A stretch of 51,326 nucleotides of DNA from Acidobacteria bacterium 13_1_20CM_3_53_8 (GTDB taxonomy: Bacteria > Acidobacteriota > Blastocatellia > Pyrinomonadales > Pyrinomonadaceae), in NCBI GenBank assembly GCA_001920415.1, contig MNJR01000035.1:14457-65782 (forward strand). Reading direction: 5' to 3'. The first letter of the stretch is position 1; each line of letters begins with the position of its first letter. Below are positions 25,206 to 29,455 of the stretch, in pieces. Both the position numbers and the translations under genes were made by a program. The notes under the pieces were generated by a model. The model was not told the origin of the DNA, made no database searches, and saw only the letters and a list, made by a program, of their open reading frames with translations.

Positions 25206-25835
25206 CTAGCTCGCCACCAGTTCCACCTGGAATGCTACCTCGGCACCGAGTTCAGTGAAGCAGGCTTCGAAGCAATAGACGACGAATATCTTGTACGTGC
25301 CCGGTATCGCACCGCGATTTATCATTACCACCTCGCGCGACACGCAGGATTGACCGGGCTTCTGGGGATTGCACGCCGGAATGTCGTCGAAGCAGATCAT
25401 GAAGCTGGGTTTGATGATAACCGAAGGAGTACCGTCGGCCTGATTCGGGACCGCGCCGCCGCTCGCAGTGGTCACAACGAGTTGCAGGGTAAAGTTCTTG
25501 AGCACCACGTTCGAATAGGGATTGCAGACTGTGATGCAGAGAACCTCTGTATCGTCTGTTTCGAGGTGGTCTTGCGGGCCATCGCCCCAACGCAGGCGTA
25601 GGCAGGGCACTATCTTGGGTACTTGGACTGTCTGGCATTCCTTGCTGCGGCAATTCCCGGATGTCAACTCAAACTGTTTCTGCGCGCAAGACCTGCGAAT
25701 CAAGTCGTTGACCAGATTCTCAAGTCTTTCGCAAACCTCTGCGTTGTTTACACCCGCCGCTTGTGCCAGAGGCGCACGCATCGGCCCCGGCGGCAGGGAG
25801 CGTGCGTCACGTTTTTGAGTTTTCTTGGCTGCCAT
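25206..25835 (-). CDS. Cysteine-rich hypothetical protein
   Basis: 209 residues with 12 cysteines and no signal peptide or membrane segment. The N-terminal 30 residues are basic and Pro-rich (KKTQKRDARSLPPGPMRAP). Residues 33-80 include a helix followed by clustered cysteines (SGNCRSKECQ). From ~95 it is beta-rich (EVLCITVCNPYSNVVLKNFTLQLVVT; PGTYKIFVVYCFEACF), like an Ig-type sandwich. I do not recognise a family. AAGGAG lies about 10 bases upstream of the ATG and a strong terminator lies downstream, so it is a real single-gene unit. The cysteines could bind metal or form a cross-linked structure (inference). Confidence 0.65.
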   Translation of the reverse strand: MAAKKTQKRDARSLPPGPMRAPLAQAAGVNNAEVCERLENLVNDLIRRSCAQKQFELTSGNCRSKECQTVQVPKIVPCLRLRWGDGPQDHLETDDTEVLCITVCNPYSNVVLKNFTLQLVVTTASGGAVPNQADGTPSVIIKPSFMICFDDIPACNPQKPGQSCVSREVVMINRGAIPGTYKIFVVYCFEACFTELGAEVAFQVELVAS

Positions 25836-26198
25836 AATTTTTACTCTCCTTAGAAGCAGAACGCTGAGGCGAAAGGCGCAGCGCTAGTGATGGAGACTGA
25901 CAGGCAGACGCCGAAGAAAGGTCAGAGGCTATATTCTAAGTGATTATCAGCAAATTCTAGTGAAGCAGTCTTGCCAGCCTGTCATTCTCCCGGTCAAGGG
26001 GTATTTGCCACTTCATTTCAATAGCTGTGGATTTACCCGCAATCTCTATTCCAGTGATAAATAACTTTATAAGTCATTTGAAACAAGCTGGCTTTATAGG
26101 GAAGATCAATTAAGCATATCTACACTGGTTGACATCCAGAGTAAAAACTGTCTACACACATAGACACCATTATGCCCCATCAATGCTTCAGCGATGAA

Positions 26199-26612
26199 GA
26201 ATTGATTCATTTACTCATTGATTCAATGAGTAATTCATGTTACGCAGTTGAAATATTTGAAAGAAAGCGCTCAATGAGTCTGCGCCAGCAGACGGACAGA
26301 GTAAAGCCCCTGACGAAGCGAAAGCTGAGTCTGGGGTCAGCAATCACATGAACCTACAGAGTCTGCGCGAGCAGACGACAGAGAAGAGACCGAAGAATAT
26401 TTGTAGAGAGAGTAAACATCTGTCGTCTGCTATCGCAGACTCCGACCGTCGCTCTCGTTCTTTACCCCAGACTACGCTAGCGCTCCGTCAGGGGCTTTAC
26501 TCTGGCCGCCTGCTAGCGCAGGCTCATTCGGGCGACTTCGACAAAGTTACTGATGCGTAACATCAATGAATCAATGAATCAATGAGTCAATGAATCAATC
26601 TATCAATCCCTT
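26199..26612. repeat. Large nested palindrome (~414 bp)
   Basis: Three nested levels. Outer arms are tandem ATCAATGA-type 8-mers ending in GTTACGCA and its complement (26199-26250; 26555-26612). Middle arms (26276-26337; 26464-26525) share AGAGTAAAGCCCCTGACG and its complement. Inner arms (26357-26383; 26420-26444) share CGTCGTCTGC-type sequence. Four short hairpins with six-base stems and four-base loops occur at 26278-26293, 26361-26376, 26425-26440 and 26508-26523 (GTCTGC-GCGA-GCAGAC and variants). The rest of the gap, 25836-26198, shows no gene. Confidence 0.75.
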
Positions 26613-26620
26613 TTCATCCC

Positions 26621-29455
26621 TCATCTGAAATCTCTGATTAGAACTACGTCGTCAGTGGTCGTGCCGCGTGAGACTGCGAGTTGATGGCCGTCGTGCGACC
26701 AGAAGAAGTTGAAGATGATGTTGGAGGTGAATTTGGTCACCTGTTTGGGCGGGCTGCCGTCAACAGGTTGATTCCAGACGTTCGAGACGCCGTTCGCATT
26801 ATCAACATAGCTTATAGCGCGCCCGTCCGGCGTCCACCACAGTCCTGCCCAGTCGCTGAGCGTCAAGGGCATGTCAAACGTTTTGACGGGGTTGCCTCCG
26901 TCGAAAGGCATCAACCCGATGGCAGGATGCTCGCCGCCTTGCTTTTCAGTATAGAGGTAGGCGATGAACTTCCCGTCGGGCGAGACCACGGCTACGTAAC
27001 AGTTCACGTCATTCAACTCGACGGGCGCGCCTCCGTCAATCGAAACCTTCCAGACAGCATTCTTGCCGGACCTTTGCGAATTGAAGATCACCCAGCGACC
27101 GTCTGGAGAGAGAGATGGCGAATCATCACGCGCCGCCCCTTCGGTCAATTGCTTAGGGTTGCTGCCGTCCGAATCTATGCGCCAGATGTTCCAGTTGCCT
27201 GAGCGGTTGGACGTGAACACTATGTAATGACCATCCGGCGTCACCGAAGGCCAGTTCTCCTGAAAGGCATCATTCGTCAATTGCTTGCTGCCTGAGCCGT
27301 CTGCGTTCACGCTGAAAAGATCAACGTTGTCGCCTGACTGCGCGAAGTAGATTATGCGACCGTCCGAAGCGTAGTAGAGACCGAAGCGACCGTCGTATTT
27401 CCCGTGAGAGATTTGGCGAGCGCGGCTAGCATCCTCGCCCGCAACGGTTATGAAGAGTTGCGATGAAGTGTCCTCCTGCACAGTGACGATTGTAGAGTTG
27501 TCGGCAGTGAGACCTAGACTCACGCCGCCGTAGCCGCTCAGGTCATTAGTGATGCGACGGGCTTCACCTTGCGGGTAAGAGACGAACCAGAGTTGCGTGT
27601 TCGGCGTCGTCACGTCCGCAGTGGCTGTCATTATTAGACCGCTTCCGTCCGAGAGCCAGATGACGTGATAGACTCTGCCCCATTTTTGAGTTGTGAGCGG
27701 TTTGGGCGCTCCGCCTTCAACCGAGAAAGCCATGACGGTGGAGTTAATATCGCCCGTGCTGCTTCCGACGCCGCAGGCTATAAGCTTACCGTCGGGTGAC
27801 CAAGACATGCCGCTGCCAGTGATGTAATCGGGGCGTTTGCGCGTGGCTATCTGCTGCTCGTTGCTCCCGTCTGCATTAGCAAGAATTAAAGAGGACTCGT
27901 TCGTAGTCTGGTTGTAGCGCAAGAAAGCGATTCGTTTCCCATCGGGAGAGAAAGCAACGACGCTGTTAATGTTCGACAGAATTTTTCGGGAAGTCCCGCC
28001 GAGCACGGGCACTTGATAGAGCGCGCCCGTTGGATTGTTCTTATCACCAAAGGTGTAGTAGATGGATTCACCGTCAGGCGTGAATGCGTTCCCTCGGCAG
28101 AAGCCTTCAGCGGGCTGCACGATTTGCACCAAGCTGTTTGAAGAAACTTGCCTGAGCCAGATGCTGGTCTTCCCGGCTTCATTCGTCGCAAAGACAACGT
28201 ACTTGCCATCGGGCGATATGGTCGCTTCGCCGTCAATCCGCGCGCTGCCAATCATTCCGCCAGTCGTTAGACGCGTAATCTTCATAGTCTTTGACGACGG
28301 CTGCTTATTCGAGCCGAAGAACTTGTAAATTCCAAAAACCACTCCTGCGAGCACCACGATGCCGAGAACGAGCGCGACAGCAACCGCCGTCTTATGACTC
28401 TTTATCTTGCCCGCGACAAACTCTGCGCTCGACACTGTAGGCACAGTTCCAATCTCGCCAGAGCGCGCGGTCGTTCTAGCGCTTGGCCCAACGGTCTGCT
28501 GCTCTGCGCTTTTCGATGAAGTCGAGATGGCGTCCGTCGTCAGCGATGAATGCGGGGCAACTGAGCGTTCAAGGTCAGAGCCAGACTCTATGCGCTGCTT
28601 CAAACGGCGTAGCTTGGCTAACATCTCTTTCGCCGTCTGCGTTCTCTCTTCTCTATCTTTCGTCAGCGCTTCTGCCACAATCAATTCGAGCGCTTCGGGA
28701 ATATCCGGCGTGTAGTGCGCCAGAGGCGGCGGCTCTTTGTCTGTGATTGCGACGATGACGTGGCTTGGGCTTGTGCCCTCGAACGGAAGATGCCCCGTCA
28801 CCATCTCGTAAATCACAACGCCCAGACTCCATATGTCAGAGCGCGCGTCCACCTCGCGCCCTACGGCCTGCTCAGGCGACATGTAAGAGACTGTGCCCAT
28901 GACAGAGCCTGGGTCTGTGTTGACAAGGGCGCGCGTTGCAGCTTCTGAATCAACGGAAGAAGTTTGCTTCTCGGTTAGCTTAGCCAGACCGAAGTCCAGA
29001 ACCTTAATGTAACTGTCGCGGCGTATCATCACGTTCTCAGGCTTTATGTCGCGGTGGACAATGCCTGCGGCGTGAGCGGCTACGAGAGCAGAGGCGACCT
29101 GCGTGGCTATTTCGAGCACTTCCGATAACTTCATCGGTGCGCCCTTCATGCGCTGGCGCAATGTCACTCCGTCAACGAACTCTGTAGCGAAGAAGTGTGT
29201 GCCGTCTTCCTGTCCGATTTCGTAAACAGTCAGAATGTTCGGATGATTCAGAGCCGAAGCAGCTTTCGCTTCCTGTATGAAGCGCTGCATACGTTTCTGA
29301 TTCTCGGCCACGTCAGGCGGCAGGAATTTTAGGGCAACGGGGCGATCCAGTTGCGTGTCCTGCGCAAGATAAACTTCACCCATTCCGCCCTCGCCAATCT
29401 TCGAGATAATGCGGTAATGCGACAAAGTCGTGTTGGCAGATAGTTCTCTATTCAT
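26621..29455 (-). CDS. Membrane Ser/Thr kinase with PD40 beta-propeller sensor
   Basis: 944 residues. Kinase domain 14-290: GEGGMGEVYLAQD, VALK (Lys 43), HRDIKPEN (Asp 136), DFG (154-156) and SPEQ, all intact. A Ser/Thr-rich linker leads to the juxtamembrane motif SSAEFVAGKIKSHK and one transmembrane helix (357-380). The outside part (~395-944) is a run of WD40-like PD40/TolB-type blades with recurring SPDGxxIxF motifs and Asp-rich turns. This is a PknB-like receptor kinase with a propeller sensor. It lacks the N-terminal module of the sigma-linked kinases. The start lies 9 bases after the VOC gene stop, so the two form an operon. Confidence 0.9.
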   Translation of the reverse strand: MNRELSANTTLSHYRIISKIGEGGMGEVYLAQDTQLDRPVALKFLPPDVAENQKRMQRFIQEAKAASALNHPNILTVYEIGQEDGTHFFATEFVDGVTLRQRMKGAPMKLSEVLEIATQVASALVAAHAAGIVHRDIKPENVMIRRDSYIKVLDFGLAKLTEKQTSSVDSEAATRALVNTDPGSVMGTVSYMSPEQAVGREVDARSDIWSLGVVIYEMVTGHLPFEGTSPSHVIVAITDKEPPPLAHYTPDIPEALELIVAEALTKDREERTQTAKEMLAKLRRLKQRIESGSDLERSVAPHSSLTTDAISTSSKSAEQQTVGPSARTTARSGEIGTVPTVSSAEFVAGKIKSHKTAVAVALVLGIVVLAGVVFGIYKFFGSNKQPSSKTMKITRLTTGGMIGSARIDGEATISPDGKYVVFATNEAGKTSIWLRQVSSNSLVQIVQPAEGFCRGNAFTPDGESIYYTFGDKNNPTGALYQVPVLGGTSRKILSNINSVVAFSPDGKRIAFLRYNQTTNESSLILANADGSNEQQIATRKRPDYITGSGMSWSPDGKLIACGVGSSTGDINSTVMAFSVEGGAPKPLTTQKWGRVYHVIWLSDGSGLIMTATADVTTPNTQLWFVSYPQGEARRITNDLSGYGGVSLGLTADNSTIVTVQEDTSSQLFITVAGEDASRARQISHGKYDGRFGLYYASDGRIIYFAQSGDNVDLFSVNADGSGSKQLTNDAFQENWPSVTPDGHYIVFTSNRSGNWNIWRIDSDGSNPKQLTEGAARDDSPSLSPDGRWVIFNSQRSGKNAVWKVSIDGGAPVELNDVNCYVAVVSPDGKFIAYLYTEKQGGEHPAIGLMPFDGGNPVKTFDMPLTLSDWAGLWWTPDGRAISYVDNANGVSNVWNQPVDGSPPKQVTKFTSNIIFNFFWSHDGHQLAVSRGTTTDDVVLIRDFR

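Follow-up and report, generated by a model that had tools for sequence, protein, structure and literature searches.

The palindrome at 26199-26612 of the window (the whole stretch of 51,326 nucleotides that was analysed) is neither a one-off cruciform nor an RNA gene, but one copy of a dispersed element, which occupies 26234-26566 and is very probably a MITE of an IS4-type parent. The odd palindrome is in this way placed in a group of MITEs that is found in three families of one class and has one end type and one target motif. The interiors of this group are many and different, mostly hairpin-rich, and a likely transposase can be named for it. The DDE transposase encoded by a same-ended insertion sequence of about 1.1 kb would act in trans, binding and cleaving the terminal repeats, and would insert the element at TTANTAA-like sites with duplication of 7 bp. 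The interior would then be non-coding cargo, a symmetric array of short hairpins (H1-A-H2 followed by H3-B-H4), probably kept because it can form hairpins in DNA, either where single strands become exposed or in a cruciform.

Geometry of the palindrome and its parts

The sequence-only reading had described a triple-nested palindrome of 414 bp containing four mini-hairpins with 6-bp stems and 4-nucleotide loops (6+4). The nested inverted repeats are present, far beyond chance. The outer repeat (26201-26246 with 26554-26599) is 46 nt long and 89 % complementary, and the inner one (26273-26382 with 26419-26528) is 110 nt long and 78 % complementary (86/110; random places in the window, 1,000 in number, gave 27.7 on average and 43 at most). 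All four mini-hairpins are perfect (26278-26293, 26361-26376, 26425-26440 and 26508-26523), the last being the variant GCCTGC-TAGC-GCAGGC, whereas 100 shuffled versions of the element had on average 0.46 and at most two perfect 6+4 hairpins. A weaker control gave the 16-mer, with up to three mismatches, eight matches in the window where 2.7 were expected, and eight were reached in 1 of 100 shuffles. Folding of both strands as RNA, a check proposed in the same reading, gave very stable structures, with z-scores of -14.2 on the plus strand (26230-26568) and -15.4 on the minus strand (26199-26612); the z-score for DNA on the plus strand was -18.2. Judged from its sequence, formation of a large cruciform by the palindrome is possible.

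The nesting is thus real, but the length of 414 bp is that of a composite. The element itself covers only 26234-26566, and the flanking 35 bp on the left and 46 bp on the right come from a different repeat with an 8-bp unit; the palindrome looks triple-nested and 414 bp long because the copy inserted into an array of this repeat. The statement that no gene explains the palindrome holds, as no open reading frame of at least 80 amino acids overlaps the region. Both neighbouring genes are on the minus strand, 25206-25835 (209 amino acids, with only a sub-threshold zinc-finger match) and 26621-29455 (a Ser/Thr kinase with PD40 repeats). The features of the region are the following, without strand unless one is given.

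26199..26233: left array of 8-bp TTGATTCA-type repeats, the host repeat entered by the window copy; it contains a perfect 11+1+11 palindrome, TTACTCATTGA-T-TCAATGAGTAA
26227..26233: decayed 7-bp target duplication on the left, TGAGTAA, which shares 5 of 7 positions with its right counterpart
26234..26566: mobile element proper (very probably a MITE), 333 bp, 51.7 % G+C, recognised by copies, ends and target duplications
26234..26247, plus strand: left terminal inverted repeat TTCATGTTACGCAG (common form CTSATGWTACGCAG)
26278..26293: mini-hairpin H1, GTCTGC-GCCA-GCAGAC
26306..26337: medium hairpin A, GCCCCTGAC...GTCTGGGGT
26361..26376: mini-hairpin H2, GTCTGC-GCGA-GCAGAC, followed by GACAGA
26425..26440: mini-hairpin H3, GTCTGC-TATC-GCAGAC, preceded by TCTGTC
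26465..26495: medium hairpin B, CCCCAGAC...GTCAGGGGC, the mirror of A
26508..26523: mini-hairpin H4, GCCTGC-TAGC-GCAGGC
26553..26566, minus strand: right terminal inverted repeat ATGCGTAACATCAA (common form ...GCGTAACATCAG)
26567..26573: decayed 7-bp target duplication on the right, TGAATCA
26567..26612: array of 8-bp repeats of the TGAATCAA type on the right, which forms the palindrome's outer arm

Phased TTGATTCA/TGAATCAA arrays, several of them hairpin-forming, are also found between genes in genomes of the same family which do not carry the element (L041-L049, L272). Since the arrays occur in relatives without the element, they are not part of it, and the outer arrays in the window are a separate repeat into which this copy inserted. 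The window query matched 17 of 59 genomes other than the source genome (G000), mostly through the 8-bp repeat.

Copies, ends and the likely transposase

Homologs, the search for which had also been proposed, were found as dispersed copies, with ends of their own and target duplications that the first reading had missed. The source genome, a 6.1-Mb draft of 155 contigs and 95.9 % completeness, contains about 45 related copies. A search by DNA similarity found 40 places, with 73-85 % identity over lengths of as much as about 350 bp; being palindromic, many of these match in either orientation. Hairpin and end patterns yielded five further loci (L050, L051, L055, L056 and L057), together with a lone hairpin (L054). 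The pattern AGTCTGCGNNAGCAGAC has 61 sites per strand in this genome and none in the 36 other genomes of the same search; 118 of the 122 sites were in fetched loci, 117 within elements and one alone, in L054. Most copies start with CTSATGWTACGCAG and finish with its complement, the element ends being CTSATGWTACGC and its complement with 12-14 conserved terminal bases in inverted order.

Duplications were counted only in elements with both ends closely matching, leaving out copies with damaged ends. Perfect 7-bp duplications flank 12 of 32 elements of the source genome, compared with 0.7 in shuffled right flanks (maximum 6 in 5,000 shuffles), and 20 of 35 short elements of relatives, compared with 1.05 (maximum 6); these sets hold a few chance end pairs, among them L069 and a 211-bp pair in L239. 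The consensus of the duplication is TTANTAA in the source genome as well as in the short elements of relatives. In a looser set of 47 rows, chance pairs included, 14 had perfect 7-bp duplications, and the 7-bp frame was the strongest (identity 0.632 vs. 0.431, s.d. 0.022); an 8-bp frame was weaker but raised (0.439 vs. 0.349, three perfect).

None of 49 elements is spanned by an open reading frame in a simple ORF model, and in four of them the end of one overlaps by 4-19 bp. Their neighbouring genes are oriented in tandem in 27, convergently in 11 and divergently in 10 cases, one being undetermined. Such placement is what selfish elements preferring AT-rich intergenic targets would leave. The group thus has dispersed non-coding copies, terminal inverted repeats, a target duplication and ends shared with an autonomous element, as MITEs do. 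Some observations count against the MITE reading, among them the following: the duplication of the window copy agrees at only 5 of 7 positions, and the element, with a G+C fraction of 0.517 (window 0.534), does not have the AT-rich body that passages of PMC10969869 give as typical, not as required. The mean pairwise identity of 0.74 among 40 aligned copies does not point to recent movement, and movement in the source genome is probably past.

Intact transposases of 357-366 amino acids are encoded between the same ends in four loci (L238, L239, L240 and L242, in G005, G007, G041 and G072). Three of these insertion sequences are 1,113-1,124 bp long and one is 1,342 bp. Perfect duplications flank L240 and L242 (TAAGTAA and TTAATAA, the G005 and G072 copies), and in the remaining five of seven same-ended insertion sequences the duplications match at 5, 5, 4, 3 and 1 of 7 positions. 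As a set, 11 pairs of insertion-sequence length, four of them chance pairs, were not above shuffles, 652 of 5,000 reaching the observed value. The link to the parent therefore rests on the ends, on the target motif in the good cases and on co-occurrence in genera. A same-ended transposase was not found in the draft of the source genome by several searches, the control of one of them having matches in 5 of 14 genomes, so that the elements are either orphaned or their parent is missing from the draft; this, too, counts against the MITE reading.

All four intact transposases score above the cut-off of the NCBIfam model IS701_2 (NF049921; 322-342 bits vs. 250) and below that of NF033540 (76-86 vs. 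150). The catalytic residues, assigned by motif, are invariant in all four (D75, D171 and E280; Y273, R276, E280 and K287), and both the D(60-110)D(100-150)E and the Y(2)R(3)E(6)K signatures of the IS4 family are present. The DDE transposase of the same-ended insertion sequences is the likely mobiliser of the MITE, which would be moved by it in trans.

The parent is best called IS4-type, near ISPepr1 in duplication length and target taste, but shorter. According to passages of PMC2266710, the ISPepr1 subgroup of IS4 shares with the parent DDE spacings of about 95 and 108, a full YREK, 5'-CT ends and an AT-rich duplication (7 bp in the parent, 7-8 bp in ISPepr1). It differs in length (1500-1600 bp vs. 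1.1 kb, one copy 1.3 kb), and the ends of the parent agree only partially with its consensus YT-AA-YTT, while NCBIfam scores the parent as IS701_2. The 7 bp fit the IS4 duplication range of 7-13 bp over subgroups, within that of the ISPepr1 subgroup only. The IS701 family provides the best NCBIfam model, above cut-off, but the parent differs from it by 7-bp instead of 4-bp duplications, by 1.1 kb instead of 1400-1550 bp and by its complete YREK. Full YREK and DDE residues are described as IS4 hallmarks, and the tyrosine as present in only 4 of 27 IS701 elements, in the same passages of PMC2266710. The parent is called IS4-type because of its full YREK and DDE and its 7-bp duplication, IS701 elements being mostly without the tyrosine and having duplications of 4 bp.

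The conserved hairpin array and its possible roles

The core alignment comprised 40 copies over the four mini-hairpins, five partial copies being left out. Over chosen columns of three stems, identity was 1.0 in H1 (identical in all copies), 0.985 in H2 and 0.915 in H4. The parts of the medium hairpins had identities of 0.96-0.99, compared with 0.43-0.52 in the spacers and the centre. Four perfect 6+4 hairpins are present in 33 of 45 copies, three in 8 and two in 4. Part of H3 is lost in L002 and one of its arms is altered in L012, L017 and L057, and an arm of H2 is altered in L031 and L032. The second stem pair of H4 is never broken; 22 of the 40 copies have C-G there and the other 18 T-A. 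Covariation, the analysis of which had been proposed at the outset, is present but slight overall, with compensatory changes in 6 of 59 predicted pairs and a covariation term of -0.47. Boxes are found beside the inner hairpins, G[AG]CAGA after H2 in 30 and TCTG[CT]C before H3 in 38 of the 40 copies.

The loops of H1 and H4 are reverse complementary in 11 of 40 copies (5.1 expected, P 0.004) and those of H2 and H3 in 15 (7.6 expected, P 0.0008), and crossed loop pairs did not exceed chance. The mirrored arms are thus sometimes alike, and most copies keep only the local stems. Among 164 perfect 6+4 hairpins, 142 have a GNNA loop on one strand, the other 22 having TTTA, TAAA or TTAA. The GCGA loop had been singled out as GNRA-type, but it is one of many, the third base of the GNNA loops being a purine in 78 of 142 with no preference for GNRA. 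According to the title of Nakano et al. 2002, d(cGNNAg) is among four stable DNA tetraloop motifs. GNNA without a GNRA preference is more in keeping with hairpins of DNA than with tetraloops of RNA. Stems that are conserved around free GNNA loops point to a constraint on DNA hairpins, suggesting their maintenance as structures of DNA; formation of DNA structure is probably the reason for their conservation.

Arrays of the same layout also occur without the ends, and were reached from weak DNA matches in other genera. One has four perfect hairpins (L268, in G033), two in G029 have three perfect hairpins and, by eye, a degenerate fourth (L267 and L270), and two are partial (L269 in G012, L271 in G029). 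In stretches of about 700 bp around the arrays of G012, G029 and G033 no left end was found; a single weak match resembling the right end lies in L269, far from the array. Elements of the 260-bp group share this layout and differ in their stem sequences (mirrored hairpin-GACAGC-ATAAAGCCC-hairpin). Since arrays of this layout stand without ends in other genera, the array appears to be cargo that was captured on more than one occasion. A parasite of two tiers is a tentative possibility, in which a REP-like array of DNA hairpins, self-standing in some genomes of the family, was repeatedly captured between IS4-type ends, the c-GNNA-g module now being spread by a double-strand DDE transposase. If true, this would give CGTC REPs, and other tagged hairpin repeats that lack their own transposase, a concrete way to spread.

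The array might instead be a REP/REPIN-type module moved by a single-strand (tyrosine, RAYT-like) transposase, with the DDE-type ends added secondarily. The end-less arrays of G029 and G033 (L267, L268 and L270), the boxes beside the inner hairpins and the DNA-hairpin type of the loops would agree with this. It is made rather doubtful by the 7-bp duplications, which indicate DDE-type insertion, and by the occurrence of the hairpins of the source genome almost only within whole elements (117 of 118 fetched sites).

The 16-bp GTCTGC-N4-GCAGAC dyads might also be operator-like sites for a dimeric DNA-binding protein, the element spreading such putative sites. The stem sequence is conserved in the 40 copies beyond what pairing demands and the centre is free, as operators would have it, but the loop ends are constrained too (G..A on one strand in 142 of 164), and group b of the same layout has other dyads and yet G..A loops in 10 of 14, so this explanation is considered unlikely.

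A bidirectional transcription terminator or insulator, selected between genes, is very unlikely. It would explain the intergenic position of the copies, and a pattern scan of 26100-26700 found four terminator-like sites where 0.5 were expected. One is in the left 8-bp repeat and three are in the element, two of these three at medium hairpins A and B, each with TTTACTCT behind it, one per strand. Convergent sites are, however, not enriched (11/49), divergent ones being equally common (10/49), and the T tail is short and poorly conserved: of 40 copies, 13 carry GGGGCTTTACTCT at hairpin B and 26 the mirrored form at hairpin A, the tail being broken by other letters in most of the remaining copies.

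The structured RNA of the sequence-only reading, which as a transcribed palindrome would act as a hairpin RNA, RNA-level regulator or mRNA stabiliser, is highly improbable, although both strands fold very stably, many copies lie less than 100 bp from an open reading frame and MITE transcripts are said in passages of PMC10969869 to form stem-loops: no Rfam family was matched (three microRNA families below threshold, E 0.16-0.39), the neighbours of the 49 elements have no bias to convergent ends, a scan of 26100-26700 gave no promoter-like sites, the GNRA bias of RNA tetraloops is absent (78/142), covariation is slight (6/59 pairs) and transposon ends with duplications explain the dispersal.

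Other interiors and known systems

The MITE reading extends to elements with other interiors. The end TAACTGATGTTACGC was found in 16 of 162 genomes of the class, a reversed control giving none in all but two. Of 396 genomes of the phylum, five were found to carry a form with two boxes, CTGATGTTACGC-N17-25-TTGAC; all five belong to Blastocatellia. Many other groups have this second box, TTGAC, about 35 bp in; the window group is without it, which counts against the reading. Such ends also enclose about ten other groups of short elements, distributed over three families of the class; sorted by eye, the same-ended elements make about a dozen groups. Their interiors differ, and the 7-bp duplication is shared. 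A group of 260-262 bp (L052, L053 and L129) and a single 202-bp element (L058) belong to the source genome. Groups of 174 to 296 bp (L059-L062, L064-L066, L071-L077 and L259) occur in other genera of the family, and elements measuring 177 to 399 bp in two further families of the class. Of 22 representatives checked, 18 have one or more perfect hairpins of at least 6 bp and 15 of those have two or more, with 0.2-0.5 in shuffles; in groups d and j none was found.

In the passages of PMC10969869 and PMC3733652 that describe them, MITEs from insertion sequences (BrickBuilt of Porphyromonas gingivalis, QMITE2 of Coxiella and Nezha of Cyanobacteria) are, like the window element, short and non-coding with terminal inverted repeats, and they share with it AT-rich target duplications, intergenic position and a transposase gene with the same ends elsewhere. 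The window element differs in its interior, a symmetric set of four mini-hairpins and two medium hairpins that is not AT-rich, and its ends differ in enclosing many interiors with one end type in three bacterial families. With 333 bp it lies slightly above the MITE range of 70-300 bp, and its 12-14 conserved terminal bases are fewer than the 15-30 bp of MITEs, both as given in passages of PMC3733652.

REP or CGTC-tagged palindromes and REPINs, as passages of PMC3733652 describe them, resemble the array in being short stem-loops in inverted pairs, the inner hairpins of the array being flanked by TGTC/TGCC and the tag of CGTC-tagged REPs being CGTC, TGTC or CCTC; REP dimers within longer palindromes are also described there. 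The array has 6-bp stems instead of 8-9 and no AT at the stem foot. It is not a CGTC-tagged REP, as its stem starts with G-C and TGTC/TGCC stands beside the inner hairpins only; no GTAG tag, which together with a RAYT tyrosine transposase marks GTAG REPs and REPINs, was seen by eye at the hairpins of the aligned copies. In contrast to REPs, it is not singly dispersed in its own genome and is carried by a DDE-type element. In passages of PMC3733652, Di Nocera et al. leave open whether tagged palindromes without their own transposase use other transposases, of which the window element is a possible case. What appears new is that the hairpin array is conserved and that one end type encloses a variety of interiors; a literature search on MITEs or insertion sequences in Pyrinomonadaceae or Blastocatellia gave no paper, and a broader one on MITE, IS701, REP and Acidobacteria gave no description of the element in titles and abstract starts, though it may still be published. 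The 19-base end of G056 and an array pattern had no match in viral contigs.

Several further elements were observed. In G045 the transposase gene of a same-ended insertion sequence (L153:1481-2854) is broken by a hairpin array of about 250 bp, the ends of which resemble TCAAGAAAA/TTTTCTTGA, and which is perhaps another MITE. In G007 (L259) a hairpin-rich element of 296 bp (298-593) lies 5 bp from a damaged same-ended insertion sequence (599-1725) that carries the CTCACCTTACGCG variant of the ends.

A GalE beside a single end in G023 (L063) was rejected as transposase, being a UDP-glucose epimerase. G048 has a same-ended element of 3.3 kb (L128:1057-4333), the duplication of which is 8 bp long (TTACTTCA). 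It contains a gene for a Tn5-like transposase and, nested in it, an IS701-like element. The Tn5-like transposase, at first taken as the parent, was rejected, as compact same-ended insertion sequences carry another transposase and array boxes lie on both sides of the gene; it is more likely, in our judgement, cargo or an insertion. The nested IS701-like gene was likewise rejected, having ends of its own, TTAGGACTTACGCA. Hymenobacter relatives of the Tn5-like element have, by eye, other ends, CTTGTCCTTACCCA. Four of the Hymenobacter elements (L174, L175, L182 and L194) have GC-rich hairpins just inside both ends, and duplications of 10-14 bp were seen by eye in L175, L182 and L194.
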